DNA from: Candidatus Methanocorpusculum faecipullorum
GTDB lineage: Archaea; Halobacteriota; Methanomicrobia; Methanomicrobiales; Methanocorpusculaceae
Direction of reading: 5' to 3'
NCBI GenBank assembly: GCA_018883755.1
Contig: JAHLFR010000042.1
Coordinates: 1 to 38,927 of the forward strand
Length of the DNA: 38,927 bases
A program made the position numbers and the translations under genes. Below are positions 10,135 to 23,956 of this stretch, in pieces. Within the stretch, counting starts at the first letter, position 1. Each line of letters opens with the position of its first letter. The notes below the pieces were generated by a model. The model ran no database searches and was not told the DNA's origin. It worked only from the letters and a program-made list of their open reading frames with translations.

Positions 10135-12369
10135 ATGCGTTGCGGCAGAATCATCGTGCGCGGTATTGTTCAGGGCGTGGGGTTCCGCCCCTTTGTGTAT
10201 GCAGCAGCTGTGCGGCTCGGCATTGCAGGATCAGTAATTAACCACGGAAGCGAAGTGGAGATTACCGCCTGCGGTGATCGGTTTGATGAGTTCTGCCGGG
10301 AGGTATCGAAAGGTCCGAAGATGTCGGTTATCGACTCAGTAACGGTCGAACCTTTGTCAGAGGGGGACGTAGATACATCCGGATTTTTCATTCTCCCCAG
10401 TGCTGACGGAGCCCGTACCGGTTTCATTCCAGCAGATATTGCAACCTGTGATGCCTGCCTTGCTGACATTATGGATCCATCAAGCCGGTACTATGGATAC
10501 TGGGCAACGTCATGTACAGACTGCGGACCACGGTACAGTATTATCCGTGCAGTACCCTACGATCGGGAACGGACATCAATGGAGGCGTTTTCCCCCTGCA
10601 ATGACTGCCTTACTGAGTATCAAAGTCCTGAGAATCGTAGACACCATGCCCAGACGATTGCTTGTAGAGACTGCGGACCTAAGCTTTCGCTCTTAACCTC
10701 ATCAGGGGAACCAGTTGTGACAGATGATCCTATCAAAACAACTGCAGAACTCCTTGATGCCGGCTACATTGTTGCGGTTCGCGGAGTTGGAGGATACCAT
10801 ATCTGCTGTATCGAGGAGCAGGCAGGTCGTCTGAAACGCCTGCTTGGGAGACCGCATCAGTCACTTGCAGTGATGATGCAGCCGGAGTCGCTCGCGGAGT
10901 ACGTAGTTCCGCTGACAGATGCAGAACGGGAGATGCTGACCGGGCCCGTGCACCCGATAATGATTCTGGATAAAGTTGATCCGGAAGCACACAGAGAGTT
11001 GTCAGAGCTACATAACCTCGGAGTGATGCTCCCCTATACAGGCCTGCATCATCTGTTGTTCACCCATTTGCAGCACCCGCTGCTGGTGATGACGAGTGCA
11101 AACGCACCAGGGACGCCGATGATTACGAAGACCTCATACATTTCCGAGCGAATGGGAGATGTTGCAGAGTATATCCTGTCACATGATCGGGAGATTGTAA
11201 ACCGGTGCGATGATTCTGTGGTGAGGGACGGATACATTATTCGCTTGTCACGGGGTCTTGCGCCACTTCGGACGGCAATGGATTTGGGAGATAGACAGAT
11301 CCTTGGAGTCGGACCGGAACTAAATGCAAACGCAACAATCTATAAGGGAGGGTTTGTGGTGACATCACCACATATCGGAAATATCCGCAATCCACCTACT
11401 GTTGCATATCTGGAAGAGACAATTGAAAAGCTTACGTCCCTGACAGGAGCAAAACCTGGGATTATTGCCCATGATCTGCATCCTCAGTTTCTCAGTACCC
11501 GGCTTGCCCACACCCTCGCAGAGGAGTGGGGAGCGGTTCTCTGTCCGGTTCAGCACCACAGGGCTCACATTGCATCGGTGACCACCGAAGAGGTGGTTGG
11601 TATTGCAATCGATGGTGTGGGTTACGGTGATGATGCAACAATCTGGGGAGGAGAAATTTTAACGGGATCTCCCGGAGAGGGATATACGAGAACAGGACAT
11701 CTGGAACAGGTTCTGATGCCGGGCGGTGATCTTGCAACAAAGTTCCCGGAGCGAATGCTGTATGGTATCCTTCCGGATGCAGAAACACTATCCCTATTGT
11801 CGGAACGCGGATGGGATGATACATCGCTTCGTGTACTTGAACAGCAGACAGAAAAGCGGTTCAACTGCCCGGCAACAACATCAACAGGCCGCGTACTGGA
11901 TGCGGCAGCGGCACTTCTCGGGATCTGTCGTGAACGGACCTACGATGGTGAGCCGTCGATGGTTCTTGAGGCATACGCCGCACGCGGAACCCCGCAACCA
12001 CTTGAGGTACGGATTGTATCCGGCAGGAACGGGGCTGATGTTCTGCTGACCTCGGAAATTCTTCGGGAGGGACGGGCAATGATCAAACGCGGTGTTTCGG
12101 TTCCCTACACTGCGGCTACAATGCAGACAGCACTCGCAAAGGGAATCGCAGAACTCGCACTCCGATCGGCAGAGAAAACAGGCATTTCAACGGCTGCATT
12201 ATCCGGAGGTGTTGCCATTAACCGATCGATCCGCGAGACAATTCTTGCGGAACTGGCAGATGCAGGAGTGCGTTGCTTGACCAATCCCCGATACCCGTTT
12301 GGTGACGGGTGCATCTCCTGCGGCCAGGTAATAACGGCAGGTATCCTTGCAAAAGAAGGAAAATTGTGA
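10135..12369 (+). CDS. hypF: Hydrogenase maturation carbamoyltransferase HypF
   Basis: Transfers a carbamoyl group from carbamoyl phosphate to HypE, providing the cyanide ligands of [NiFe]-hydrogenases. All family domains are present over 744 residues. These are an acylphosphatase domain (VQGVGFRPF near residue 12), two zinc knuckle pairs (C105/C108 with C127/C130, C155/C158 with C177/C180), a YrdC-type domain (about 195-380) and a Kae1-like carbamoyltransferase domain with the HHRAH metal motif. No other hyp or hydrogenase structural gene lies in the window apart from mvhD. It is monocistronic as far as can be seen and is read divergently from the HTH regulator. Confidence 0.96.
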   Translation: MRCGRIIVRGIVQGVGFRPFVYAAAVRLGIAGSVINHGSEVEITACGDRFDEFCREVSKGPKMSVIDSVTVEPLSEGDVDTSGFFILPSADGARTGFIPADIATCDACLADIMDPSSRYYGYWATSCTDCGPRYSIIRAVPYDRERTSMEAFSPCNDCLTEYQSPENRRHHAQTIACRDCGPKLSLLTSSGEPVVTDDPIKTTAELLDAGYIVAVRGVGGYHICCIEEQAGRLKRLLGRPHQSLAVMMQPESLAEYVVPLTDAEREMLTGPVHPIMILDKVDPEAHRELSELHNLGVMLPYTGLHHLLFTHLQHPLLVMTSANAPGTPMITKTSYISERMGDVAEYILSHDREIVNRCDDSVVRDGYIIRLSRGLAPLRTAMDLGDRQILGVGPELNANATIYKGGFVVTSPHIGNIRNPPTVAYLEETIEKLTSLTGAKPGIIAHDLHPQFLSTRLAHTLAEEWGAVLCPVQHHRAHIASVTTEEVVGIAIDGVGYGDDATIWGGEILTGSPGEGYTRTGHLEQVLMPGGDLATKFPERMLYGILPDAETLSLLSERGWDDTSLRVLEQQTEKRFNCPATTSTGRVLDAAAALLGICRERTYDGEPSMVLEAYAARGTPQPLEVRIVSGRNGADVLLTSEILREGRAMIKRGVSVPYTAATMQTALAKGIAELALRSAEKTGISTAALSGGVAINRSIRETILAELADAGVRCLTNPRYPFGDGCISCGQVITAGILAKEGKL

Positions 12370-12460: not shown

Positions 12461-12634
12461 TTAATCCTCGATTTTTCTGAAAAGACCTGGTTTGCTCTTT
12501 GGAATCATACAGGTTGGACACTTCCAGCTGTCCGGAATATCCTCATATTTTGTTCCTGCCGGAATCCCATGCTTTGGATCGCCCAGATCCTCATCATAGA
12601 TATACGCACAGAAAATGCACAGATATTTTGCCAT
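12461..12634 (-). CDS. Rubredoxin with altered metal knuckles (57 aa)
   Basis: A short gene encoding a one-iron electron carrier. The product has the rubredoxin layout: CIFC near residue 6, a YIYDEDLGDPKHGIPAGT segment, DSWKCPTC near residue 39, and aromatic residues at the usual sites. It is odd that the glycine normally following each CxxC is replaced, by Ala in the first knuckle and Met in the second. AGGTGAT lies about nine bases before the ATG. The gene follows the GYCLCG protein on the same strand, with a 38-base gap, and probably shares its transcript. This suggests a redox partner role for the sulfur island (inference). Confidence 0.88.
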   Translation of the reverse strand: MAKYLCIFCAYIYDEDLGDPKHGIPAGTKYEDIPDSWKCPTCMIPKSKPGLFRKIED

Positions 12635-12672
12635 ATACTCATATCACCTGACAGAAATAAATATCCTCGGTT

Positions 12673-13248
12673 TCAGGCACTCTTTGCCTTTTCCTCCATC
12701 TCCTCACGGATCTCATCAATATACATAATATCATCATAGTGCTTACCGCACAGACAATACCCATGTTTATCCACAGCATACACCGGATAACGGACAACAT
12801 CCTCTGGAACTGGCACTGCAGTCAGGCGGTTCATGTTCAGAAGATCCTCGGGACGGTAGCCAATCGTTTTACACACATGATTGAAGTCACGAATCCAACC
12901 ACGGAGATCACGCACGTCATTCATATCCCACTTAAAGATCTGATAAAGCAGCATGTACGCATCACGCTCAAGAATCACCTGCGATAACTCCTGGCTCTGG
13001 GTGAAATAGAAATCAAGGAATGTTCTCACGTCCCGTACCTGCTGTGCCGACTCATATGTTGCAGCCCGCATCTCGCGTGCAGTACCAATGCGGTCTTCAT
13101 CTTCCAGCTTTCCTCCAAGACGCCCAACCTCTTTGGAAATATCCTTCAGATCCAACTCAATATTCTCCAAATCCCCAAGAACATCTTCGAACTTTTTATA
13201 CAGCTCAACGCCGAAGAATGCCTCCATGTATTCACTGTGCTTCGTCAT
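12673..13248 (-). CDS. GYCLCG-motif protein A (unrecognised family, 191 aa)
   Basis: I do not recognise the family. Residues 15-90 are strongly helical and charged and may form a coiled coil. The C-terminal 100 residues contain WD..DVR.L..WIR, then PVPEDV..YPV and finally GYCLCG (163-168) followed by YIDEIREEM. A paralogue at 20052-20609 matches without gaps over residues 94-184, about 41 of 91 identical by eye. The CxC pair in a fully conserved hexapeptide suggests metal or sulfur chemistry, but no catalytic family is evident. A TTTATATAG box about 28 bases upstream suggests a leaderless transcript. Rubredoxin follows on the same strand and the sulfur genes lie divergently. Confidence 0.75.
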   Translation of the reverse strand: MTKHSEYMEAFFGVELYKKFEDVLGDLENIELDLKDISKEVGRLGGKLEDEDRIGTAREMRAATYESAQQVRDVRTFLDFYFTQSQELSQVILERDAYMLLYQIFKWDMNDVRDLRGWIRDFNHVCKTIGYRPEDLLNMNRLTAVPVPEDVVRYPVYAVDKHGYCLCGKHYDDIMYIDEIREEMEEKAKSA

Positions 13249-13393
13249 TGTAGAGATATTTAACTCATAATTCTATATAAACCATTACTTCGGAGATATC
13301 GGCAGAAATAAATATAGATTCAGGGATTATTACCTAACATATAAGATAAGTTGTAACCTTTATAGAGAAGAAAAACCAAAATCACCACTACTA
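13249..13393. promoter_or_regulatory. Divergent promoters: GYCLCG protein A (minus) and cysteine desulfurase (plus)
   Basis: The minus-strand TATA element is at about 13271-13283. Plus-strand candidates are ACATATAAGAT (about 13337-13347) and CCTTTATAGAG (about 13358-13368). No Shine-Dalgarno site precedes the desulfurase ATG, so a short leader is likely. No inverted repeat was seen. Confidence 0.45.
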
Positions 13394-14602
13394 ATGCCTT
13401 CCTTTGATCCCGACACAATCAGATGCGACTTCCCTATCCTTGAGAGACTAATATACCTCGATAATGCTGCAACTTCCCTCTCCCCACGTCAGGTAATTGA
13501 AGCACAAGTAACGGCAGAGTACAATTACCGCGCCAATGTAGGCCGAGGTATTCATCGCCTCTCCCGTATGGCAACTCACCAATACCAAGAAGCACGCGAG
13601 ACGCTCAAAAAATTTCTCGGCGGTGAACATGGAACCCTTTCATTCACAAAAAATACTACTGAATCAGCAAACATTGTTGCACAAGGGATCCATTGGAAGA
13701 AAACCGATCGGATCGTCACCGTTCTTCAGGATCATCACTCAAATCTGCTTCCGTGGTACAGGTTAAAAAATGATGGTCTCATTGAAGACATTGATGCTGT
13801 AACCACCGTCTCCGGAATCCTCGATCCCGCAGAGATTGAAACCTGTATCACCAGAAATACACGCCTCGTCGCCCTTGGCCATGCCTCAAATGTCTTTGGC
13901 ACCATTGCACCAGTAAAAGAAATTGCAGACATATGCAAAGACAAAGAAGTACTGCTCCACATTGACGGCGCGCAAACCGCACCCCACCTTCCACTTGAAC
14001 TTGAAAAGATAGGATGCGACTATTTCTCATTCTCCGGCCACAAGATGCTCGGGCCCATGGGAACCGGTGGACTCTGGATCAGTCCCGATGTTTCTGGAGA
14101 CGATGTTCCAGTACCACTTTGTGCCGGGGGTGGGATGGTACAAAGTGTCAGAGGTACAACCTTCGCTACAGTTGACGGACCTGGACGTTATGAAGCAGGA
14201 ACTCCAAACGTTATTGGTGCAATTGGATTAGCCGAGGCTGCGCAGTATCTCACCAGGCTTGGTATGAAAAATGTTGCAGACCACAGTGCAGCACTTGCAC
14301 GCCGAATGATAGAGGGTCTTGCGGAGATCCCCGGTGTCCGAGTTTATACACCGGCAGATGCACCGCTCATCGGAACAGTCTCTTTTACCGTTGACGGTGT
14401 ACATCCCCATGAAGTTGCCTACCTCCTTGATGAGGCTGCAGGCATCATGGTCCGGTCCGGCGAACACTGCTGCCAGCCGCTCATGCACGCCCTCTGCCTG
14501 AACGGAGGAACCGTCCGTGCAAGTGCCTACTGCTATAACACTGAAGACGATGTTGACCTGCTTATTGCAACAACCGAAGAAATTGCCGGAATGGTGAAGT
14601 AA
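13394..14602 (+). CDS. Cysteine desulfurase, group II (SufS/CsdA type)
   Basis: PLP enzyme that removes sulfur from cysteine as an enzyme-bound persulfide; some relatives act on selenocysteine. The 402 residues cover the whole fold. The PLP lysine is K217 in SGHKMLGP, the cofactor aspartate lies in HIDGAQ, and the acceptor cysteine is in RSGEHC (C359), the group II signature. An extra Cys follows directly (C360). It is the first gene of a plus-strand unit, with the FdhD-like gene two bases after its stop, so the carrier for its sulfur may be that protein. Most methanogens make cysteine-derived sulfur little use, which makes a dedicated desulfurase here notable. Confidence 0.93.
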   Translation: MPSFDPDTIRCDFPILERLIYLDNAATSLSPRQVIEAQVTAEYNYRANVGRGIHRLSRMATHQYQEARETLKKFLGGEHGTLSFTKNTTESANIVAQGIHWKKTDRIVTVLQDHHSNLLPWYRLKNDGLIEDIDAVTTVSGILDPAEIETCITRNTRLVALGHASNVFGTIAPVKEIADICKDKEVLLHIDGAQTAPHLPLELEKIGCDYFSFSGHKMLGPMGTGGLWISPDVSGDDVPVPLCAGGGMVQSVRGTTFATVDGPGRYEAGTPNVIGAIGLAEAAQYLTRLGMKNVADHSAALARRMIEGLAEIPGVRVYTPADAPLIGTVSFTVDGVHPHEVAYLLDEAAGIMVRSGEHCCQPLMHALCLNGGTVRASAYCYNTEDDVDLLIATTEEIAGMVK

Positions 14603-14604
14603 TC

Positions 14605-15279
14605 ATGAACCAACCAATAAACGAAACTCCAGTACAGATTATCATTAATGGCCGCGCCGCAATGACCATCATGACCTCTGCAGAAGATCCGACAGATCTC
14701 GTAGTTGGGCAGCTCTACACAGAACGTGCTATTGAAACATATGCAGATATCAGTTCAATGCACACGGACGGCCCTCAGACAAGTGTTGTCACCACAAATC
14801 CATTCGAAATCCTGCTTTCCCGCAAAACTGTTCTTGCAGGATGTGGAGGAGCGTCCTCTTTCCTTGACTCAGGCAGACTTGGAAACATTACCTCTGATCT
14901 TGCAGTATCAGCAGAACAGATACAATCGTCTGCTGCACATCTCCCAGAAACCTGCTGGCACAGCGGTGCATTATTCACAGAGGAGGGAAGACTCCTTGTT
15001 GCAGTAACTGATCTCACCTCCCAGAATGTGGCAGACCAAATTATAGGATGGGGACTTGCACACAGCACAATTTTTGAAAAAACGTACCTACTTATCTCAG
15101 GAAATATTGTTGCAGAAACGGTGAGAAAAGCAGTTATTGCAAAAATACCTCTTCTCATAACAGATGCAGAGATAACAACAGCGGCAGTTGCAGCTGCGGA
15201 TGATGCAGGGATGACACTCTGTAAGCTCGTGGAGGATACCGTTATCCCTCATACCAGATCCAATCACTGTATTCTCTAA
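14605..15279 (+). CDS. Divergent FdhD-like sulfurtransferase
   Basis: 224 residues aligned by eye along the FdhD family: an NG..AMTIMTSAEDPTDLVVG start, a mid-protein R..LAGCGGASS motif, then GALFTEEGRLL, IIGWGL, LLISGNIVAE and IPLLITDAEITT. FdhD takes sulfur from the desulfurase IscS and passes it to the molybdenum cofactor of formate dehydrogenase. Here the usual CGxC pair keeps only one cysteine (C80 in CGGA), and the EDVGRHNA motif is replaced by TDLTSQNVA. A further Cys is at 117. It is shorter than E. coli FdhD. It sits two bases after the cysteine desulfurase, and no formate dehydrogenase is present in the window. Function is probably sulfur transfer to another acceptor. Confidence 0.75.
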   Translation: MNQPINETPVQIIINGRAAMTIMTSAEDPTDLVVGQLYTERAIETYADISSMHTDGPQTSVVTTNPFEILLSRKTVLAGCGGASSFLDSGRLGNITSDLAVSAEQIQSSAAHLPETCWHSGALFTEEGRLLVAVTDLTSQNVADQIIGWGLAHSTIFEKTYLLISGNIVAETVRKAVIAKIPLLITDAEITTAAVAAADDAGMTLCKLVEDTVIPHTRSNHCIL

Positions 15280-15443
15280 CCATCTATTTATTTCAGGCAG
15301 GCTAAAGCCAGAACCGCGAGTCAATATAAATTAGTTGTGATAGTTTTATTAACAATAACAAAGTGAAATGTCCAAAGACATGGAACTATAAAATCATTTC
15401 TACCAACATTGATATTGCATCCATTCGAATAGGAAATACAGCT
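15280..15443 (+). promoter_or_regulatory. Promoter region of the transporter-TusA-OsmC unit
   Basis: CAATATAAATTAG (about 15323-15335) is a good TATA element and AGGAAAT (about 15431-15437) is the ribosome site for the ATG at 15444. The frame is open upstream to 15363, but the added residues are polar and unlike the transporter family. Confidence 0.5.
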
Positions 15444-15974
15444 ATGGTAGCTAATAGTTCTGATGAAAAAAAAGGGCTGGACTCTTATCTTAAGATGCCG
15501 CTCGTTGGTGGAGCCGTGATTGGCTTTGCCGCAGCACTTATCCAAGCTCTCCTGTTTGCCGCAGGTGGACCGCAGGCTTACGGTTTTTGTGTTGCATGTC
15601 ACAGTCGTGACTTGATCAACTATGTGTACAACTCTCTCACCGGAAGCAACCTTTTCCTTGCACCATTCTCTGCAAATGCGGTTGCTGCAGGAACACTGCC
15701 TGTCTTAACCATCATCGGTGTTCTTATTGGTGCAGTTGCTGCAGCAGTTCTCTACAAAGAGTTCCGTGTCAAGAAAGGTGATGCGAAAGGTTATGTAGCA
15801 TATGGAATCGGCGGTATCCTCTTTATGATCTTTGCCCTCTGTATGGGAGCATGCCCATACCGCCTTGCACTTCGTATCGGCTACGGTGACCTCGTTGCAG
15901 TCTTTGGACTTATTGCAATCATTATCGGTGTCCTCATCGGTATTAAGATCGCCCTGAAGAGAATGGAGGCATAA
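15444..15974 (+). CDS. YeeE/YedE-family transporter, N-terminal half protein
   Basis: A membrane protein of 176 residues with four or five hydrophobic segments. Two conserved cysteine sites fall at helix ends: YGFCVACHSRD and MGACPYRLALR. These match the first half of the YeeE/YedE sulfur-transport family, whose members import thiosulfate (YeeE/TsuA) or are proposed to import a selenium species (YedE). In bacteria the protein is usually a single chain about twice this length. The second half is the next gene, two bases later, so the two probably pair in the membrane. Confidence 0.8.
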   Translation: MVANSSDEKKGLDSYLKMPLVGGAVIGFAAALIQALLFAAGGPQAYGFCVACHSRDLINYVYNSLTGSNLFLAPFSANAVAAGTLPVLTIIGVLIGAVAAAVLYKEFRVKKGDAKGYVAYGIGGILFMIFALCMGACPYRLALRIGYGDLVAVFGLIAIIIGVLIGIKIALKRMEA

Positions 15975-15976
15975 TA

Positions 15977-16498
15977 ATGGTTGACGGATTTTTAATTCCC
16001 AAAGAAACCGCAGTCCTCCTTGTTCCAATCGCAACTCTTATTCTGGGTCTTGTAATTGGGTGGCTCGGTCAGAGAAGCGGATTCTGTTCTATTGGAGGTA
16101 TCCGTGATTATCTGCTCTTCCGGCAGACACGTCTTCTGAAAGGATATGTAGCACTCATTATCTCTGCATTTGTCTTCTACTTGATCTTTTCACTGCTTGT
16201 CCCCGCGGCAATTCCAAGTTTCCCCTGGTGTATCCAGGATGGACAGTTACTCACTGCAATTGGCGGAGCGCCAGCTGTTAGTGCAGCAGGTGTAATCATC
16301 CTCATGATCATTGGCGGTATCTTCATAGGACTCATTGGAACGCTTCTCGGAGGATGTCCACTCCGCCAGCTTGTCATGACCTCTGAAGGAAACATCAAGT
16401 CCCTGGTATTCGTAGTTGGCATGCTTGTTGGAGCAGTTATCTTCACAGCAGTCGTCTCCCCCTGGATCATTGAAGTCTTCACAGCAATCGGCCTCTGA
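15977..16498 (+). CDS. YeeE/YedE-family transporter, C-terminal half protein
   Basis: 173 residues with about five hydrophobic segments. Conserved cysteine sites are SGFCSIGGIRD and LGGCPLRQLVM; the latter closely resembles the GGCPxRQL motif of the YedE putative selenium transporters. The protein mirrors the preceding gene, with one FC...RD site and one CP.R site each, as expected for two halves of an internally duplicated channel. It is followed 12 bases later by a TusA-like gene, the usual partner of this family (YeeE-YeeD, YedE-YedF). Confidence 0.82.
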   Translation: MVDGFLIPKETAVLLVPIATLILGLVIGWLGQRSGFCSIGGIRDYLLFRQTRLLKGYVALIISAFVFYLIFSLLVPAAIPSFPWCIQDGQLLTAIGGAPAVSAAGVIILMIIGGIFIGLIGTLLGGCPLRQLVMTSEGNIKSLVFVVGMLVGAVIFTAVVSPWIIEVFTAIGL

Positions 16499-16510
16499 GG
16501 TGAACAAACC

Positions 16511-16735
16511 ATGACTAACAAATTAGATATTACCGGGAAAGTATGTCCGTTCTGTCTTTTGGCAGTTGATAAAGAGTTGAAAAAACTCCCATCGGGCGCA
16601 GAACTCGTTGTTGTGTGTGACCATGCACCCGCAGCAACAGCGTCAATTCCCGAATATTGTGGAAACAGAAACATCAAGTGCAGTGTCAAACTGATTGAAA
16701 ACGGACTTTGGGAAATCACTATCACTAAGAACTGA
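16511..16735 (+). CDS. TusA-like sulfur carrier with a CPFC active site
   Basis: A 74-residue protein with the TusA/SirA fold: LDITGKVCPFCLLAV at the start of the first helix, then a beta strand (AELVVVCD) and a closing WEITITK strand. TusA proteins carry persulfide sulfur on the Cys of a CPxP motif. Here the second proline is a cysteine (CPFC), giving a possible dithiol site. A third Cys lies in VVCDHAP. The neighbouring YeeE/YedE halves suggest it receives the imported sulfur or selenium species. Confidence 0.85.
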   Translation: MTNKLDITGKVCPFCLLAVDKELKKLPSGAELVVVCDHAPAATASIPEYCGNRNIKCSVKLIENGLWEITITKN

Positions 16736-16753
16736 GAAACCAAATGAGTTAGG

Positions 16754-16972
16754 ATGATCCCTGACTTCCGTGATGAATCGTGTACCTATCTGATGCTGAG
16801 GCTGAAAGTAGCCCTGAAAAAAGAAAAAGGAGCATTCAGCTTTCTCGGGACATCAACACAGGTAAAAACAGTGGAAGGAGCATTTCCAAAATCAGGATAT
16901 GCTGTTGATGTAATCACTCAGGATGAGAAAGACACATATCTCATTACATTAACACCTTCCGTACAAAAATGA
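16754..16972 (+). CDS. Small TusA-like protein without the CPxP motif (72 aa)
   Basis: Same length and apparent secondary structure as the preceding TusA-like protein: an opening DFRDESCTYLMLRLKVALKK helix, GTSTQVKTVEG in the middle and a closing TYLITLTP strand. The active-site position reads SCTY, so a single Cys remains but the following proline is lost. I infer a diverged TusA-fold protein; direct similarity is weak. The ATG at 16754 has only a poor ribosome site. Its position between TusA and OsmC in a tight unit supports a carrier or accessory role. Confidence 0.6.
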   Translation: MIPDFRDESCTYLMLRLKVALKKEKGAFSFLGTSTQVKTVEGAFPKSGYAVDVITQDEKDTYLITLTPSVQK

Positions 16973-16981
16973 GACAGAAAC

Positions 16982-17503
16982 ATGTTGAACAATATTGATC
17001 TCGCACAGGTAAAGCAGTACGAAGCCGAAATTAAGGCTGACGATAATGAAGCGCTGTTCACGACCAGGATGACTGGAACCTGGCAGTTCGATGAGAACGG
17101 ACCACAGTTTACAGCAGATGCAAAAACTGATGCCGGACCGGTTAGATTCGCGTTGACCCACCCGAACTTTGAAAAACTTGGAAACTATCCATCCCCAATG
17201 GCATATGGTCTGTTCTGGATCTGTGGGTGTGCTTCAGCAACTTTCATGACCGCTGCAGCAAAAAGAGGAATCAAGATCGATGCCCTGCACACCGACATCG
17301 AAGCAGACCTCGATTACCACGCACAGTTCCAGCTCGGAACACAGCCTCTGGTTGGTGCATACAGAGTTACCTTCAATGTAACCAGCGCACAGGCAACTGA
17401 TGAAGAGATCGAAAGCCTCAAGGAAGCAGCATATAATGGGTGCATGGCACTGTTTACGGTAAGAAATGCAATCCCGTTAACCGTCTCTGCAAAGAGAGCA
17501 TGA
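16982..17503 (+). CDS. OsmC-family protein
   Basis: A 173-residue OsmC/Ohr-type protein, a family of thiol-dependent peroxide or persulfide-handling enzymes in the cytoplasm. The two typical cysteine regions are present, FWICGCASATFMTAAAKRGI near residue 79 and NGCMALFTVRNAIPL near residue 152. It lies nine bases after the TusA-like gene and overlaps the next gene by four bases (ATGA), so all are cotranscribed. In this setting a role with organic or inorganic persulfides is more likely than a general osmotic response (inference). Confidence 0.85.
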   Translation: MLNNIDLAQVKQYEAEIKADDNEALFTTRMTGTWQFDENGPQFTADAKTDAGPVRFALTHPNFEKLGNYPSPMAYGLFWICGCASATFMTAAAKRGIKIDALHTDIEADLDYHAQFQLGTQPLVGAYRVTFNVTSAQATDEEIESLKEAAYNGCMALFTVRNAIPLTVSAKRA

Positions 17504-17979
17504 CACTCCCTTCCTATTTTTCAATCCCAGATACACTCGACAGTGCACAATTAAAAGTTCAGGCAGAAGAACTTTTCAACAGCGGACAATTTTATTGCTC
17601 GGAAGCAGTAGTAAAAATAATCAGAGACACATTCTGCCCATCAGTTCCGGATGCAATCATCGCCACAGCTTCAGGGTTCCCTGTAGGTATGGGCGGAGGT
17701 GGATGTACATGCGGGGCAGTGGCAGGAGGAGTAATGGCTCTTGGACTTGTCTTTGGCAGAACCAAACCCGAAGAAAAAGTACAGTCCGCAGAGTGTATGA
17801 AATATGCACGCGAACTACACGACAGATTCCGGAAAGAAAACAAAGCAATCTGCTGCAGGATACTGACAAAAAATATGCTTGAGGACTCATCAGAGCACAA
17901 AAAACAGTGTGCAGAACTTACCGGGGAAGTTGTTGAAATTGTTGCCGAGATTATTCTCAGGGAAGCCAGAGCACAGTAA
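17500..17979 (+). CDS. C_GCAxxG_C_C-family putative redox protein
   Basis: 159 residues from the ATG at 17500, which overlaps the OsmC stop. The family's spaced cysteines are visible: YCSEAVV near residue 32, then GGGCTCGAVAGGVMALGLVFG near residue 69, ECMKY, ICCRIL near residue 126 and KQCAELT near the end. The family is named for this pattern and is thought to be redox-active, but no reaction is established. The central motif here is CTCGAVAGG, close to the consensus GCAxxG. It ends the plus-strand transport unit; a 118-base gap precedes the first siroheme gene. Confidence 0.85.
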   Translation: MTLPSYFSIPDTLDSAQLKVQAEELFNSGQFYCSEAVVKIIRDTFCPSVPDAIIATASGFPVGMGGGGCTCGAVAGGVMALGLVFGRTKPEEKVQSAECMKYARELHDRFRKENKAICCRILTKNMLEDSSEHKKQCAELTGEVVEIVAEIILREARAQ

Positions 17980-18026
17980 AAGAAGTCTCTGAGAGTCATC
18001 TTCGCTTTGCTATTTTTCAACCAGAA

Positions 18027-18070
18027 CAAACTGTTTGAAACAGGTGCTGCAAAGACAATTCTTTTATTAT
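18027..18070 (+). promoter_or_regulatory. Overlapping palindromes and TATA candidate before the first siroheme reductase
   Basis: CAAAC-T-GTTTG (18027-18037) and CTGTTT-G-AAACAG (18031-18043) are two perfect palindromes that overlap. A T/A-rich box (CTTTTATTAT, 18061-18070) follows. GAGGT at 18086-18090 is the ribosome site for the ATG at 18098. The palindromes could bind a dimeric regulator. Confidence 0.45.
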
Positions 18071-18097
18071 CCCCTCTCCAATGATCGAGGTACAACA

Positions 18098-19003
18098 ATG
18101 GCAGATCCGAACCTCTATCTAAAAGGCGGAGTGATCCCAGAACGGGATAACGAACACTATATTATCCGGCTCAGAACACCTGCCGGTATGCTTGGTGTGG
18201 ACGCTCTTGCAGGAATTGCCGAGATCGCAAAGAAATACGGAATTCAGGACACTCACTTAACAACAAGACAAACAATTGAGTTGCTTCACGTAGGCCCTGA
18301 AATTCTCGATGATCTCCTTGCGGATCTTGAGAAAAACGGGACTCCGATCGGTGCAGAACGTAATGAAGTCGTAAATGTCACTGCATGCCTTGGAAATGCA
18401 AACTGTAAGTACTCCGTTATCGACACCATCTCACTTGCCAAAAAACTTGATGAGAAACATTTCGGAAAGGAGATGCCTGTGAAAGTTCGCATTGCGATCT
18501 CCGGCTGCCCGAACGGGTGTACGAGTGAACGATTAAATGAGATTGGCATTACCGGACTCCGTCGGCCAGTACGTAATGAGGGGCTTTGTACTGGATGCGG
18601 AACCTGCGGATACTACTGCCGGGAACATGCAATCCTGATTGAAAACGGAAAACTTCGGTTAAATCAGGGAGATTGTATGCTCTGTGGATTCTGCATTCAC
18701 GCATGTCCTTTCCAGTATATTAATTTCGAGGATCCTCTCTATCTAATTACACTTGGTGGTAGACGCGGACGTCATCCAAAGATCGGAAGAACATTCTATA
18801 TCGCACGCTCCGAGGACGATGTTGTGGAAATCGTGGGAAAGATCATCTACTGGATTTTCAGAAGTATCGCATCAGATAAAATGCTCCCAGAACAACTTAC
18901 TGATGAGGAGTTTGCTGAGTTCCGCGAAAAAGTTGTGAAGAGTTTGAAACCGCTTGGCATTGACGGTGTGGATCCAACTAATGCTTACTGTATGCAAAAT
19001 TAA
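18098..19003 (+). CDS. Siroheme sulfite/nitrite reductase-like protein with ferredoxin domain (Dsr-LP type), copy 1
   Basis: A 301-residue protein. The N-terminal ferredoxin-like half domain has HLTTRQTIELLH. The siroheme-[4Fe-4S] site is C97-X5-C103 and C137-X3-C141 (SGCPNGC). Two inserted [4Fe-4S] ferredoxin motifs follow (C164, C167, C170, C174; C193, C196, C199, C203), then a conserved TLGGRRGRHP segment. This matches the small dissimilatory sulfite-reductase-like proteins of methanogens, whose substrates are mostly unproven, and lacks the F420H2-oxidising domain of Fsr. Electrons probably come from ferredoxin. It has its own promoter region and ribosome site. A paralogue follows at 19159. 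Reduction of sulfite or a related oxyanion is the likely role. Confidence 0.85.
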   Translation: MADPNLYLKGGVIPERDNEHYIIRLRTPAGMLGVDALAGIAEIAKKYGIQDTHLTTRQTIELLHVGPEILDDLLADLEKNGTPIGAERNEVVNVTACLGNANCKYSVIDTISLAKKLDEKHFGKEMPVKVRIAISGCPNGCTSERLNEIGITGLRRPVRNEGLCTGCGTCGYYCREHAILIENGKLRLNQGDCMLCGFCIHACPFQYINFEDPLYLITLGGRRGRHPKIGRTFYIARSEDDVVEIVGKIIYWIFRSIASDKMLPEQLTDEEFAEFREKVVKSLKPLGIDGVDPTNAYCMQN

Positions 19004-19017
19004 TATCTTTCACCATC

Positions 19018-19025
19018 TTTTTTTT
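19018..19025 (+). terminator. T8 terminator after siroheme reductase copy 1
   Basis: Eight consecutive T residues lie 15 bases after the stop codon, fitting an archaeal U-tract terminator and separating the two siroheme genes into different transcripts. Confidence 0.5.
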
Positions 19026-19090
19026 CAGACAATTATCCCTGACACGTTACATGTATCAAAAATATAGGACCAGTCTCCATCATATTATGG

Positions 19091-19158
19091 ATAAATATAT
19101 ACTAGGGGAAAAGTACTCAGAACTCACCTTAATAAATACAGCATACAAATATAAATAG
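19091..19158 (+). promoter_or_regulatory. Promoter region of siroheme reductase copy 2
   Basis: ATAAATATATAC (about 19091-19102) and TTAATAAATAC (about 19128-19138) are both TATA-like. No Shine-Dalgarno site precedes the ATG at 19159, and the second box is spaced for a short or leaderless transcript. Confidence 0.45.
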
Positions 19159-20040
19159 ATGAAATCCGACTCCAAAATATACGAAATGGGAGGAGTAATT
19201 ACCGAAGCAGACGGGGAACACTGTACTGTCCGGTTACGAATGCCTGCGGGGATCGCAACAGCTGATCAGCTTATTGCCGCAGCGGAGCTCGCCAAAAAAT
19301 ACGGAACAGACGAACTTCACTTCACCACCCGGCAGACACTCGAGATCCCGCATATCCCTGCGGACCAGCTCCCATCATTTTACGAGGAGCTCATTGCCGC
19401 AGGAAATGATGTTGGTGCCGAACGCGGGGAAGTTGTAAACATCACTGCCTGCCCCGGAACCCACCGCTGTAAATTTGCCAACATCGATTCGGTCGGCATG
19501 GCAAAGAAAATTGATGCCAAATACTTCGGCAAGGACATGCCCGGAAAAGTCCGTATTGCCATATCAGCATGCCCGAATGCCTGTACTAGTGAAACCCTGA
19601 ATGAAATAGGCATCACCGGTATCTGTACACCAATCCGCCAGCCAGGCTACTGTACAGGGTGTGGGACATGTGTACAGTACTGCCAGGAAGAGGCACTAAC
19701 AGTTCGCGAAGGGAAAATCGTCATGGACGATGACGCATGTCTTGACTGCGGAACCTGCGTCCGCTCCTGTATCTACGGAATTCTTGAGTCACAACCCCAG
19801 TCCTACCGCATTACCCTTGGCGGCAGACGCGGACGTCACCCCAAAGTAGGCATGCATCTTATCACCGTCAACACTGAAGATGCCGCAGTCCAGGTGATCG
19901 ATAGTATCATTGACTGGATCTATCGGTACGCAAGATTTGATACCCCCATCGTTCAACAGATCGGACAGGAACTCGATATGGAAGATCTCAAAAAGAATCT
20001 GCAGAAGAACATCCCCGCAGAACAGATTGTAGTGCTGTAA
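19159..20040 (+). CDS. Siroheme sulfite/nitrite reductase-like protein with ferredoxin domain (Dsr-LP type), copy 2
   Basis: A 293-residue paralogue of the preceding gene with the same order: HFTTRQTLEIPH, siroheme-[4Fe-4S] cysteines C98-X5-C104 and C138-X3-C142 (SACPNAC), two [4Fe-4S] ferredoxin motifs (CTGCGTCVQYC, CLDCGTCVRSC) and the shared TLGGRRGRHPK segment. The active-site loops differ (CLGNANC in copy 1, CPGTHRC here), so substrate preference may differ. It has its own promoter and ends 11 bases from the convergent GYCLCG protein B. There is no sign of damage. Confidence 0.85.
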   Translation: MKSDSKIYEMGGVITEADGEHCTVRLRMPAGIATADQLIAAAELAKKYGTDELHFTTRQTLEIPHIPADQLPSFYEELIAAGNDVGAERGEVVNITACPGTHRCKFANIDSVGMAKKIDAKYFGKDMPGKVRIAISACPNACTSETLNEIGITGICTPIRQPGYCTGCGTCVQYCQEEALTVREGKIVMDDDACLDCGTCVRSCIYGILESQPQSYRITLGGRRGRHPKVGMHLITVNTEDAAVQVIDSIIDWIYRYARFDTPIVQQIGQELDMEDLKKNLQKNIPAEQIVVL

Positions 20041-20051
20041 AAACAAAAAAA

Positions 20052-20609
20052 TTATTTTTCTGCCATCAGATCGCGGACTTCATCGATGTAGCGAATCTCG
20101 GCAAGATCCATTCCGCAAAGACAGTAACCCTGACGGTCCAGCACAAACACAGGATATTTCTCTACATCTTCAGGAATCGGCTCCGTTGGAATCTGTTTCA
20201 CATGCAGAAGATACGGGACATCAAGGCCGATGTGTGATGTAAGCTCTTTTAATTCCCGAATCCATCGTGCCAGCTGACGAACATCAACACGATCCCATTG
20301 AAGAATCCGCACCAGCGTCTGATACGTATCCCGCTCATACACCAGATGATTTCCTTTCAGCTTCTCATTCACTGCATCCTCATAGGTCGTGGTCCACTTC
20401 TCCAGATCGTCAGTGGGGCCAAGGGCTGCATCCGCATAGAATCTCAACTCCTTTTCCCGTTCAGGATCAGAACATTTGGATGCCGCATCCTCCATGTTGC
20501 GGATAACAGCAGTGATCTCATCATGAATTCTCCGCAGATCATCAAACGCATGGTCAAGATCATCATGGAGATGGGTACTAAAGAAAACCGGCTTTTCATT
20601 ATCAGTCAT
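20052..20609 (-). CDS. GYCLCG-motif protein B (unrecognised family, 185 aa)
   Basis: Paralogue of the protein at 12673-13248. The N-terminal 80 residues are helical, charged and not alignable by eye with copy A. The C-terminal half aligns without gaps: ERD.Y..L, WD..DVR.L..WIR, P.PEDV..YPV and GYCLCG (161-166), then YIDE.R..M. Its stop faces that of siroheme reductase copy 2 across 11 bases. The two copies thus lie at either end of the sulfur island, both on the minus strand. Function is unknown; the invariant CxC suggests metal or sulfur binding. Confidence 0.75.
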   Translation of the reverse strand: MTDNEKPVFFSTHLHDDLDHAFDDLRRIHDEITAVIRNMEDAASKCSDPEREKELRFYADAALGPTDDLEKWTTTYEDAVNEKLKGNHLVYERDTYQTLVRILQWDRVDVRQLARWIRELKELTSHIGLDVPYLLHVKQIPTEPIPEDVEKYPVFVLDRQGYCLCGMDLAEIRYIDEVRDLMAEK

Positions 20610-20643: not shown

Positions 20644-21240
20644 TTATTTCTTCAGATAGAGGTTCACATAGACCGTCTGGCCTTTTGATGTCGGGTGGCG
20701 CTCACCAAGATCGCCGATGTAGTGGGCAAAGACAGCCTTTTCTCCGTCAACCTCGGCCTCAACATCGTCAACGTATCTGTATCCGGGCATCATATACTCA
20801 ATCTTGCCGAAAACATAGACGTCACCCTTTACTGCCTGACCGCCGACACGCCCCTCTACATTTCCTTTGATGATGATGGTTCCACCCTCGCCGTGGGTCA
20901 GAACGTGAATAAACACATCGCCCTCGATGATGATGGTTCCACCGCGCATAAAGGTACCTACATCGTTACCTGCATTGCCGATCACGCGGAAGACACCACC
21001 GGTCATACCGCGCCAGTCGCCGCGGCATGCACAGCCGACGTGATTCTGCGCACTGCCGTTTACCGTAAGTTCTCCACCAGCCATTGCAATACCAGTGAAG
21101 GAGTCAACGTTACCGTTTACGGTAATCTTGCCGCCCTTCATCCAGCCGCCGGTGTACATATCGGCGTTGCTGTTGATCACAATCTCACCAGCAGTCATCT
21201 GCTGGCCGATACGCTTTACACGAGTCCAGTCGCCGTTCAA
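20644..21240 (-). CDS. FwdC-like beta-helix protein lacking the normal N-terminus
   Basis: 198 residues homologous to the formylmethanofuran dehydrogenase C subunit encoded at 21435-22241. It has the same Gly-rich beta-helix repeats (GEIVINSNADMYTGGWM, GGTIIIEGDV, GGTIIIKGNV) and the same ending IGDLGERHP.SKG. The only usable start is TTG at 21240. Similarity continues about eight codons further upstream (AETKIV against DETKID) in an open frame with no ATG or GTG. About 65 N-terminal residues of a normal FwdC are missing. U-tracts after fwdC suggest separate transcription. It may be a degenerating copy or a real shortened paralogue; the intact repeats and ending argue for retention. Confidence 0.7.
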   Translation of the reverse strand: MNGDWTRVKRIGQQMTAGEIVINSNADMYTGGWMKGGKITVNGNVDSFTGIAMAGGELTVNGSAQNHVGCACRGDWRGMTGGVFRVIGNAGNDVGTFMRGGTIIIEGDVFIHVLTHGEGGTIIIKGNVEGRVGGQAVKGDVYVFGKIEYMMPGYRYVDDVEAEVDGEKAVFAHYIGDLGERHPTSKGQTVYVNLYLKK

Positions 21241-21434: not shown

Positions 21435-22241
21435 TTACTCCTTCAGAGTGTAGATGTGGCCGTAAACAACCTCACCTTTGCTCTTCGGGTGGCGTTCGCC
21501 AAGATCGCCGATGAACACATTAAACATGTGGGTTTCACCGTCAACCTCAATCTCTCTCTCCTCAACCTTCTTGAAACCAGGCATCATCACATCACAGCCG
21601 TGGAAGACATAAATCTCACCTTTCACCATCTGACCGCCGACACGGCGATGAGCTTTGCCCTTAATGATGATTGTTCCACCCTCTGCGTGCGTACCAATGT
21701 GGATATCAGCATTACCTTCAATAATGATGGTTCCACCGTTCATGAACGTAGCGACATCAGAGCCTGCGTCACCCTTAATACGAATGAGACCGCCCTGCAT
21801 TCCACGCCAGTCACCACGGTATGCAGCACCAAGGTAGTTCCATGCTCTGCCTTCAACTAGCATTTCTCCGCCCTTCATCTGAAGACCGGAGAAAGAACGA
21901 ACATCTCCCTTCACATGGAGCTTTCCACCTTCCATCCATGCACCAGTGAACATATCTGCAGTTCCGTTGACAACAACTTCACCTGCAGTCATCCATGCAC
22001 CGAAATACTTACACTTGGAGGTTCCAGGACCATAGACGTCGATCTTTGTCTCATCAGCAGTCGCCCCGGCTGCACCGGAGATCTCAAACCAGTCGCCAAG
22101 CGTGTAATTACGCTTACCTTCCGAACACGGAAGTGCTGCAATCTCCTCAAGAGACTTGCCAGCAAACTTGTCCGGCGTAACACTCTCACACTCAAGGTAG
22201 AGGTCTGGGACTTTCTTTAACTTAATAGTTACCGTGTTCAT
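21435..22241 (-). CDS. fwdC: Formylmethanofuran dehydrogenase subunit C
   Basis: A structural subunit of the enzyme that reduces CO2 onto methanofuran, 268 residues and full length. A short N-terminal domain (LKKVPDLYLECESV) is followed by a right-handed beta-helix of Gly-rich repeats related to the glutamate synthase C-terminal domain (GEVVVNGTADMFTGAWM, GGTIIIEGNA, GGTIIIKGKA), ending in IGDLGERHPKSKG. It lies three bases after fwdA. It is the last gene of the continuous fwd-hdr unit before the U-tracts. Confidence 0.95.
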   Translation of the reverse strand: MNTVTIKLKKVPDLYLECESVTPDKFAGKSLEEIAALPCSEGKRNYTLGDWFEISGAAGATADETKIDVYGPGTSKCKYFGAWMTAGEVVVNGTADMFTGAWMEGGKLHVKGDVRSFSGLQMKGGEMLVEGRAWNYLGAAYRGDWRGMQGGLIRIKGDAGSDVATFMNGGTIIIEGNADIHIGTHAEGGTIIIKGKAHRRVGGQMVKGEIYVFHGCDVMMPGFKKVEEREIEVDGETHMFNVFIGDLGERHPKSKGEVVYGHIYTLKE

Positions 22242-22244
22242 CTC

Positions 22245-23954
22245 TTACACCTCGATAATCTCCTGGTGCGGAGCATAGTGATCAACAACCTCATAGTTGC
22301 CAAGGTTGACACTGTAGTACTTCAGGAACTTCTCAGTAATGTCGTGCATAACCTGCTTGTTCTCTGGCACTTTTGCATCAACCCAATAGGTCTTCTTGAC
22401 AACCGGGTCAGCATCCAGCACAACACCATCTTCAACAACCTTCACACCATCCTTGAAGAAGTATGCAGACTTTGCAAACGCATTCTCAAGGTCAACACCC
22501 TTGGGCATATTGTCCGGGTTGATGTTGTAAACAGCAAGGTTTGCTTTCATACCCGGTGCAAGACCGCCCATGGAACCGGACAGACCAAGTACCTGTGCAG
22601 GTCCAGCACGGGTCATCTGAGACAGCTCATAAAGGTTGATCTCACGATCAATCTCAGCGAGGTAAGTTGCATCAATAACCTTTGTTGAATACTTGAAGCT
22701 GTTCAGGAGATTGTCACGATACTGCTTGTCCATCAGCCATGCGTAGATACGCGGGTAGCGGGTGAATGGTCCTGCATTCGGGTGGTCAGTAGTGATCATC
22801 GTCCGCATCGGATCCTTTGCAAACAGCGGGATTTCCAGACCGATAGCCCACTGAATGTCGCAAACTTTCACGTTCGGGCTGTAGACATACGGAACGACAC
22901 CGGAAGATGTCTCAAGCTCCACATCTACGTTACCCCACTTGAGGTGGTTTAAGGCACCAAGGTGATACTCAAAGGGACCGTCAGCAGTCATTGTGGTGGT
23001 CTCATCAAGAGTAACGCTACCAGTATCGACAGAGATCTGAGGAGTACTGTTCACATAGTCCATAACCTCCTTCGACTTGGACTCAAAGTCACCCCATCCG
23101 GTTCCGCCATAAGAGTGGAACTGAATGTGTGTGTGGTGCAGGACTGTCTTACGACCAAGATTATTGTTCGGTTTGAAGTCCTCTGCAATCTTCAGAGAGT
23201 CAAGGGTGGTCGTATAGTTTCCGGGATTACCCAGGTTGTTGGAGTGCAGGTGCACTGAGTGCGGCAGGTGCAGCTCTTCATTGGTGGTAATAAGACCAGC
23301 AATGATCTCTTTCGGGGTAATTTCGAAGTACGGGACTGGGTCATTGATGGTCATACAGTTCAGACCCCATGCCCAAGCCTCGGAACCTCCTGGGTTCACA
23401 CACTTGATACCATATCCTTTGGTCTGGCGAAGCATCCATGCAACATATGCTGCTGCATTGTCGATTTCACCGTTCTTCAGATACTCGAACATGAACCAGT
23501 TATTACCAAACACCGGCATTGCTGCTTCATCAACGATCGGAGTGTCGCGGATCTCCTCGTGCACATGACGGGAGTAGAGAGGCGGCATTGCTGCTTCCAT
23601 CAGGAAGCCGAATCCCATACGGGCATACTCATATCCGGTCTTGTAGACTGTCGGAATTGAGAAACCTCCCTCAATCTTGGTCTTCGGGTTGATCTTTGCC
23701 GAGCAGCGCTCACCAAGGCGGAACTTGTCTTCTGGGCGGTACCAGCGGCCAAGGTTCACCTTTGGACCTGCAACGTGGGTGTGCACATCAAGTGCACCGG
23801 CCATGACAGTCTTGCCGGTTGCATCAATGACGGTTGCAGCATTGCTGACTTTGTCAACAAACTTTCCGTCCTTAATACAAACATCAGCGACATCGCCTTT
23901 CAGACCGGTAACAGCATCAAAGACGTGACCATTCTTAATGATAATCTCAGACAT
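22245..23954 (-). CDS. fwdA: Formylmethanofuran dehydrogenase subunit A (amidohydrolase)
   Basis: Binuclear metal amidohydrolase subunit that joins formate, produced by FwdB, to methanofuran. Full length at 569 residues. Metal-binding motifs are DVHTHVAGP near residue 55, the histidine-rich stretches PHSVHLHSN and LHHTHIQFHSYGGTGW, and TTDHPNAGPF near residue 390. It lies between fwdB and fwdC with two- or three-base gaps, so translation is probably coupled. Confidence 0.96.
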   Translation of the reverse strand: MSEIIIKNGHVFDAVTGLKGDVADVCIKDGKFVDKVSNAATVIDATGKTVMAGALDVHTHVAGPKVNLGRWYRPEDKFRLGERCSAKINPKTKIEGGFSIPTVYKTGYEYARMGFGFLMEAAMPPLYSRHVHEEIRDTPIVDEAAMPVFGNNWFMFEYLKNGEIDNAAAYVAWMLRQTKGYGIKCVNPGGSEAWAWGLNCMTINDPVPYFEITPKEIIAGLITTNEELHLPHSVHLHSNNLGNPGNYTTTLDSLKIAEDFKPNNNLGRKTVLHHTHIQFHSYGGTGWGDFESKSKEVMDYVNSTPQISVDTGSVTLDETTTMTADGPFEYHLGALNHLKWGNVDVELETSSGVVPYVYSPNVKVCDIQWAIGLEIPLFAKDPMRTMITTDHPNAGPFTRYPRIYAWLMDKQYRDNLLNSFKYSTKVIDATYLAEIDREINLYELSQMTRAGPAQVLGLSGSMGGLAPGMKANLAVYNINPDNMPKGVDLENAFAKSAYFFKDGVKVVEDGVVLDADPVVKKTYWVDAKVPENKQVMHDITEKFLKYYSVNLGNYEVVDHYAPHQEIIEV

Positions 23955-23956
23955 CT

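Follow-up and report, generated by a model that had tools for sequence, protein, structure and literature searches.

The locus at positions 12461-20609 of a 38,927-nucleotide stretch of DNA from Candidatus Methanocorpusculum faecipullorum (contig JAHLFR010000042.1, hereafter the window) raises the question of whether its closely spaced genes form a single pathway and, if so, whether that pathway serves sulfur or selenium. The locus encodes a rubredoxin, a cysteine desulfurase, an FdhD-like protein, a YedE-type membrane transporter split into two proteins (YedE1 and YedE2), a TusA-family carrier, a second carrier referred to here as TusL, an OsmC-like protein, a C_GCAxxG_C_C redox protein, two siroheme reductases (Sir1 and Sir2) and two paralogous proteins (Para A and Para B); genes for formylmethanofuran dehydrogenase (Fwd), the enzyme with which the reduction of CO2 to methane begins, lie beyond Para B. 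Every gene that the initial annotation had named at 12461-20609 was found there by family searches and translations. We consider it highly likely that this island is one functional system, and it very probably handles sulfur rather than selenium. We tentatively read it as a sulfur import-and-relay island of the Methanomicrobiales that may supply the neighbouring Fwd, a reading that is credible while falling somewhat short of probable.

The comparison with relatives was based on 199 genomes of the order Methanomicrobiales, with genera and families numbered. Family f6 comprises the Methanoregula (g13) and Methanospirillum (g35) types and two more genera, f2 comprises Methanomicrobium and kin, and f8 and f23 are other families of the same phylum. 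Sixty stretches around matches to Para B were fetched and scanned with the window proteins and extra queries. Linkage counts refer to loci L032-L080, where 50 Para genes occur in 48 of the 49 loci, the window's own two Para genes being excluded; L080, a fragment of less than 300 bases, gave no row, and L081-L091 (11 loci, mostly distant partial Para matches) were excluded. A gene is counted as in the stretch when it lies inside the fetched piece, and since the genomes are related, the rows are not independent. Linkage tallies were recounted by script, and genome tallies for Para, YedE and Sir were made by eye from tables.

In Methanocorpusculum/Methanorbis, Methanoregula and Methanospirillum-type genomes, much of the gene set is found again in rearranged form, frequently next to fwd operons. 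Across all 50 Para genes, Sir was in the stretch in 37, fwd in 32, and either fwd or a FwdC-like gene in 39. The association is tightest in f6, where all 19 Para genes have Sir within 147 bp, and where the stretch holds fwd in 18 cases, rubredoxin in 17, YedE in 15, OsmC in 15 and C_GCAxxG_C_C in 12; at the genus level, fwd linkage was found in three of the four f6 genera with full-length Para. Para is flanked by fwd on either side, in pieces of up to 20 kb, at 5/13 g13 loci and 6/19 f6 loci. In the Methanocorpusculum group, Para B (10 genes) is directly downstream of fwdC2 at a distance of 35-52 bases in every case, with Sir in the stretch for seven and YedE for four, while Para A (14 genes, many of them near contig ends) has YedE in 10 stretches and Sir in 10. 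The seven Para genes of f2 all have a FwdC-like gene within 1.5 kb; Sir was found in one of these stretches, mcrB in six and moeA in five, four of them within 4.4 kb. At L118, L067 and L077-L079, all from Methanomicrobium and kin, the neighbours of Para are a FwdC-like gene and moeA genes, joined by mcrB on contigs that extend far enough. The initial annotation had held that a single system would be improbable if the genes were scattered and unlinked in relatives; they are instead linked across other genera and families, although some relatives lack the set. Co-location in three genus groups, with partial reshuffling, together with the conserved relay cysteines described below, bears out its proposal of one integrated system.

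The gene order of the neighbourhood at the Methanoregula-type locus L051 reads fwdFDBAC, rubredoxin, a methyltransferase-like gene, d129 (unknown), an SclA-type desulfurase, Sir1, Para A, YedE1, YedE2, TusA, DsrE, TusL, x160 (unknown), an activase, a double-cubane reductase, C_GCAxxG_C_C, OsmC and a second fwdFDBA. The double-cubane reductase and the activase scored 495 bits against NF040772 (cut-off 350) and 225 bits against TIGR00241 (cut-off 125), respectively, and the desulfurase scored 357 bits, just below the TIGR01977 cut-off of 377; a DsrE domain is also present, the DsrE protein, activase and double-cubane reductase lying within L051 11626-15471. L048 and L044 carry the gene set of L051 minus a detected second fwdF, with rubredoxin relocated in L044, and the Methanospirillum-type loci L049, L059 and L070 (g35) have much of the set around fwd in orders unlike those of the Methanoregula-type L048 and L051. 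The Methanocorpusculum group carries a SufS-type desulfurase and the FdhD-like protein at the place of the SclA-type desulfurase. Rows of this group gave no match to DsrE, the double-cubane reductase or HgdB (0/24 for each), versus 17/19 (DsrE) and 9/19 (double-cubane reductase) rows in f6.

In the window, the core of the island is a run of eight co-directional plus-strand genes (13394-17979), from the desulfurase to the C_GCAxxG_C_C protein, separated by gaps of -4 to 83 bases. The two YedE proteins (YedE1, 15363-15974; YedE2, 15977-16498) are the N- and C-terminal halves of one transporter, matching positions 4-133 and 186-305 of model TIGR04112, respectively. Their scores of 64.8 and 86.5 bits lie below the cut-off of 200, for which a split gene is handicapped. 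YedE2 was found in 45 of the 199 genomes. Cysteine counts exclude duplicate genome copies and use identity thresholds of 30-60%, set per gene; C76, C79 and C164 of YedE1 and C37 and C127 of YedE2 were all invariant in 44/44 rows. The TusA gene (16511-16735; PF01206, 57 bits) begins 12 bp downstream of yedE2, and both cysteines of its CPxC motif are kept in 28/28 rows. TusL (16754-16972) gave no family match in our searches. Its AlphaFold2 (AF2) model (mean confidence, pLDDT, 88.6) has the TusA topology, beta-alpha-beta-alpha-beta-beta, and the best match in the PDB was the SirA-like 3hz7, with template modelling (TM) scores of 0.76/0.74 and a Foldseek E-value of merely 0.012; E. coli TusA ranked 32nd with a TM score of 0.70, and the profile comparison of TusL with TusA was weak (probability 17, E 0.0015). 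TusL has CTxL instead of the CPxP active-site motif, and its single invariant cysteine, C10, is present in 21/21 rows.

The desulfurase (13394-14602, 402 aa) is SufS/CsdA-like (PF00266, 370 bits) and scored best, among the models shown, with the SufS model TIGR01979 (378.3 bits, under the cut-off of 475.1); its C359/C360 pair is kept in 12/12 rows at 50% identity or more. The OsmC-like protein (16982-17503; PF02566, 58 bits) has C83 and C154 in 27/28 rows, the remaining row being unaligned there. The C_GCAxxG_C_C protein (17500-17979; PF09719, 108 bits; TIGR01909, 110 bits, above cut-off) starts within osmC, overlapping it by 4 bases. The four cysteines of rubredoxin are invariant in 13/13 rows at 45% identity or more. 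The FdhD-like protein (14605-15279) is a divergent member of its family, with 110.4 bits against PF02634 (gathering score 27.2) and scores below the NCBIfam equivalog cut-offs (94.2 versus 269 and 79 versus 140.9 bits). FdhD sulfurtransferases have a loop with two cysteines, the first of them essential; alignment with E. coli FdhD (4pde) shows this first cysteine to be kept here as C80, which is present in 11/11 rows. Elsewhere in the host genome, contig 25 (L173 1486-2979) carries one 497-aa reading frame with two tandem FdhD domains.

Sir1 (18098-19003, plus strand) starts 118 bases after the eight-gene run, and Sir2 (19159-20040, plus strand) follows 155 bases after Sir1, to which it is 46% identical. 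Sir1 matches PF01077 and PF03460. Both proteins contain the CX5C and CX3C siroheme-4Fe-4S motif and two CX2CX2CX3C ferredoxin clusters, and the 12 cluster cysteines of Sir1 are kept in 35/35 rows at 45% identity or more. Arg/Lys residues that are candidates for sulfite binding lie in the stretches TTRQT, GAER, CK and KVR. The best PDB match of Sir1 was F420-dependent sulfite reductase (Fsr), 7np8. Sir-like matches are near-universal in the order (188/199 genomes at E <= 1e-60). Counts of additional copies are of matches rather than genes, and fragments on broken contigs may be counted twice (e.g. G130). Two or more matches at this threshold were found in 27/45 genomes with full-length Para versus 10/154 without, and, with g13, g31 and g35 pooled, an extra copy was present in 17/18 genomes with Para versus 0/21 without.

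Para A (12673-13248, minus strand) and Para B (20052-20609, minus strand) are 31% identical to each other, and neither matched any Pfam or NCBIfam model at E <= 0.01. On sequence grounds, Para is an undescribed protein family. The AF2 model of Para A (mean pLDDT 80.6) consists of helices in a long bundle and, at the C-terminus, a small beta module, and the comparison of the Para model with solved structures yielded no trustworthy fold match. An alignment of 33 members has 16 invariant columns, one of them a cysteine, and Para B forms a separate branch with 100/100 support. Among named genomes, the closest kin by Para A, at 88-96% identity, are Methanocorpusculum sp. HAC020.1, M. petauri, 'Methanocalculaceae archaeon Hm464_bin161' and Candidatus Methanorbis basalitermitum. 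Used as a query, Para B matched 54 of the 199 genomes, 45 of them with full-length proteins and the other nine with partial ones (G047, G053, G145, G149, G155, G163, G171, G177, G178). When 392 genomes from across the phylum were searched with a profile, 48 had a match, of which 22 belong to the order, 25 to f8 and 1 to f23; those in f8 cover the C-terminal part, and the lone f23 match is weak, at positions 14-130. In f8, mobA is directly upstream of the C-terminal homologue of Para and on the same strand at 10/10 fetched loci (L145-L154), a link that may point to a role of Para in the maturation of Fwd, itself a molybdenum or tungsten (Mo/W) enzyme. A short Para homologue adjoins a hycI-type protease in g35, and elsewhere its context was not recognisable. 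A pattern-based scan of named genomes found 33 Para loci, 32 labelled methanogens or Euryarchaeota and one labelled Bacteroidales. The latter, L123 (3.3 kb), carries a Methanocorpusculum-type Para B, rubredoxin and Sir2, and is probably a misbinned archaeal contig.

With regard to the element handled, the initial annotation had left sulfur and selenium side by side; sulfur now appears the likelier, and the selenium part was not supported. SelD scored above cut-off in 2/199 genomes of the order (G043, G163), in none of the own genus (12 members at least 90% complete; the host genome is 80% complete) and in 0/45 genomes with this YedE C-half. The search can detect SelD, since 2/14 control genomes pass the cut-off. 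The expected selenocysteine/cysteine site of the window's FwdB reads cysteine in its translation. That the island imports and traffics selenium, the role put forward for YedE/YedF in bacteria, is very unlikely, even though several observations speak for it. The top NCBIfam model for both YedE halves is TIGR04112, seleno_YedE (both halves under its cut-off, as given above), and families with selenoproteins gave the OsmC_like_Se and C_GCAxxG_C_C models their names. Papers are cited here from parts of their text. According to the relevant part of PMC5322559, bacterial YedE almost always accompanies SelD, and in Slackia YedE is linked to a SirA-like protein, a Sec-lyase, an activase and YedF, the last of these to a 2-hydroxyglutaryl-CoA dehydratase gene. 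In Methanococcus maripaludis, a selenium user, the yedE transcript rose by 5.3 log2 upon selenium depletion and the effect of deleting yedE, seen with selenocystine, was mild, but the authors, in the portion of PMC11097638 that covers these data, could not clearly tie any selenium species to the transporters they tested.

Transport, relay and sulfite reduction can be arranged into a pathway from the families of the proteins. YedE1 and YedE2 would pair into a channel through which a sulfane-sulfur compound, for instance thiosulfate, crosses the membrane. TusA would receive sulfur at the inner face through its CPxC motif and pass it on via TusL and OsmC; together with the cysteine desulfurase, it would also deliver sulfur to the FdhD-like protein. 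Sulfite set free in this process would be reduced to sulfide by the dedicated Sir1 and Sir2, fed by ferredoxin or rubredoxin. Relayed sulfur would enter the sulfur-rich metal cofactors of the neighbouring Fwd, and Para could be a helper of Sir or of Fwd. The Fwd step is proposed because of the linkage to fwd, the mobA and moeA neighbours of Para, the six sulfur ligands, one of them an axial sulfido ligand, of the W/Mo in Fwd/Fmd (PMC11656701, in part), and a model for formate dehydrogenase, whose cofactor of this kind is sulfurated by FdhD (PMC10609526, in part). Taken by itself, Fwd as the destination of the sulfur is possible and on balance doubtful. A narrower version is unlikely: that the island is a dedicated Fwd maturation route, in which imported sulfane sulfur and the desulfurase feed TusA and the FdhD-like protein and, through them, the sulfido ligand of the W/Mo-bis-pyranopterin guanine dinucleotide (bisPGD) cofactor, with Para as a new class of maturation factor for Fwd, a bisPGD enzyme, and with the C-terminal module of Para linked to mobA in another family of the phylum.

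Several findings weigh against an importer and relay that serve Fwd. The yedE response of M. maripaludis to selenium depletion fits a selenium function (PMC11097638, in part). Sixteen of the 45 YedE genomes gave no Para or Sir match in the fetched stretch and no fwd match there above 24% identity, some of these stretches being short; these f6 genomes (L155-L167, L169-L171) show solely YedE1-YedE2-DsrE, and therefore the importer works without the other proteins. Conversely, Para and Sir occur without YedE in four f6 loci (L046, L056, L057, L058), and three genomes of the same genus (G030, G054, G078; 95-98% complete) have neither a Para nor a Sulf_transp match. In the Methanocorpusculum group, fwd is in the stretch for merely 4/14 Para A rows, many of them cut by contig ends. 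The FdhD-like protein lacks the second loop cysteine in 11/11 rows and is altered in the stretch that follows, which we take to be the conserved GRHN motif of FdhD; it was matched in 0/19 f6 rows, and the host genome has more FdhD-family genes elsewhere. C-terminal modules of Para are also found in other contexts. Finally, the extra Sir is mixed in the own genus (10/19 genomes with Para, 0/6 without) and was found in 0/7 Para-holding genomes of f2 and 0/1 of g25, so that the island brings its own Sir copy in several genera, not in all.

Another view is that the island serves thiosulfate and sulfite assimilation and detoxification only, with YedE and TusA importing thiosulfate, Sir1 and Sir2 clearing sulfite, a poison of methanogenesis, and fwd proximity reflecting shared electron supply or expression rather than cofactor maturation. 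In f6, no gene accompanies Para as constantly as Sir does (19/19), both reductases have full cofactor motifs, Dsr-like proteins are abundant in methanogens and sulfite inhibits methanogenesis (PMC3448663, in part), and thiosulfate splitting by YeeE/YeeD frees sulfite and sulfide (PMC11073785, in part). We regard this explanation as a real possibility that is nonetheless not probable, given that it leaves unexplained the position of Para B directly behind fwdC2 (10/10), the FwdC-like neighbour of Para in f2 (7/7) and mobA before the C-terminal module of Para (10/10 fetched). A redox-stress or reductive detoxification island, in which persulfide chemistry acts as a sensor or buffer, would account for rubredoxin, OsmC, C_GCAxxG_C_C and the siroheme reductase, and for the double-cubane reductase of some relatives (9/19 f6 rows, with OsmC in 15/19 and C_GCAxxG_C_C in 12/19; NF040772 at 495 versus 350 bits plus the activase in L051). 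It is quite unlikely, as it needs no YedE, TusA or cysteine desulfurase, and the double-cubane reductase is absent from the matches of all 24 Methanocorpusculum-group rows. That the genes are chance neighbours without a common function could draw on the same-genus genomes that lack the set (G030, G054, G078), yet it is refuted by the linkage counts and by shared content in differing order in several genera, which makes it extremely unlikely.

The initial annotation had stated that no described system has this composition. This is correct in part: neighbourhoods of YedE with SirA-like, Sec-lyase and activase genes, and the splitting of archaeal YedE, are in print (PMC5322559, in part), whereas siroheme reductases, Para and links to fwd are absent from the account of YedE in the first part of section 9 of that paper. 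A survey of the literature by titles and abstract openings gave no description of this island. The island is thus a partly known type of neighbourhood, to which Para adds one new protein family. With the bacterial neighbourhood of Lin 2015 (PMC5322559, in part) it shares YedE, a TusA (SirA)-like protein and a cysteine desulfurase; the Methanoregula-type loci share more, namely a DsrE domain, an activase, a double-cubane reductase and a desulfurase near TIGR01977. The island differs in that no SelD was found, that siroheme reductases, Para, the FdhD-like protein and fwd linkage are added, and that the 24 Methanocorpusculum-group rows gave no DsrE or HgdB match. As L051 holds the ingredients of the Slackia type, the island appears to be kin to that neighbourhood but independent of SelD.

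Other known systems are similar in individual parts. Bacterial YeeE with YeeD, a TusA-family protein, imports and splits thiosulfate, releasing sulfite and sulfide (PMC11073785, in part). This system, TsuA/TsuB, likewise pairs a membrane protein with an adjacent TusA-family partner. Its cysteines are essential, with conserved ones along the transport path, for which the five invariant cysteines of the window's YedE halves are candidate counterparts. Here, however, there are two half-size membrane proteins and the TusA motif is CPxC, not CPxP; scores against TsuA (NF041049) were 18.7 and 16.4 bits versus 645, and against TsuB (NF041048) 34.2 versus 147.5. PmpA/PmpB are also two half-size YeeE proteins, proposed to pair (PMC11582611, in part), whereas the halves in the window are longer (203 and 173 aa versus about 130) and have three and two invariant cysteines. 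A different kind of Sulf_transp pair, also adjacent and with higher scores, is frequent elsewhere in the order, and 124/199 genomes have some Sulf_transp match. The architecture of Sir1 and Sir2, a siroheme-4Fe-4S motif plus two ferredoxin clusters, is that of the C-terminal half of Fsr and of group III dissimilatory sulfite reductase-like proteins (Dsr-LP), which couple the motif to peripheral and additional 4Fe-4S clusters (PMC3448663, in part); unlike in Fsr, Sir is free-standing and unfused, and in several genera it is an extra copy beside the common one. The FdhD-like protein belongs to the PF02634 family of FdhD sulfurtransferases and shares the first loop cysteine, but differs in the lost second one, in the altered later stretch and in the presence of other FdhD-family proteins in the genome.

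The island offers a concrete gene set with which two questions can be probed: by what route sulfur reaches the Mo/W site of Fwd in methanogens, and for what reason these organisms retain several Dsr-like siroheme proteins. The results also suggest that a neighbourhood of YedE and SirA-like genes need not signal selenium use. This bears on annotation, because the best model for both YedE halves is named a putative selenium transporter.

The two paralogues do not fully bracket the set, as the initial annotation had described them. Both are present, but rubredoxin (12461-12634, minus strand, 57 aa; PF00301, 72 bits) sits beyond Para A, 38 bp downstream of it on the same strand, and the neighbourhood runs on into fwd, a linkage that lies outside the coordinates of the initial annotation and was missed there. 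Para A and rubredoxin are divergent from the island at its left end, Para B is convergent at the right, and rubredoxin also adjoins Para B in L035 and L038. The natural neighbourhood beyond Para B comprises fwdC2, fwdC, fwdA and fwdB, then Hdr and FwdF. The first of these genes, fwdC2 (20644-21240, minus strand), is a 5'-truncated remnant of a second fwdC, with 198 aa versus 266 in relatives; about 55-68 residues present at the N-terminus of its relatives are missing, and the host genome (1.25 Mb, 80% complete, 46 contigs, of which the window is contig 34) yielded no second fwdB to match it. Probably, a second fwd operon was deleted (or the assembly was joined here), leaving Para B behind the main operon. 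The genes fwdC, fwdA and fwdB occupy 21435-25330 on the minus strand, fwdC scoring 231 bits against TIGR03122 and fwdA and fwdB being identified by translation reading, as were fwdD, mvhD, hdrA, hdrB, hdrC and fwdF past fwdB. On the other side, hypF (hydrogenase maturation; 10135-12369) adjoins rubredoxin and Para A, and it occupies the same place in L060, L062, L064 and L065.

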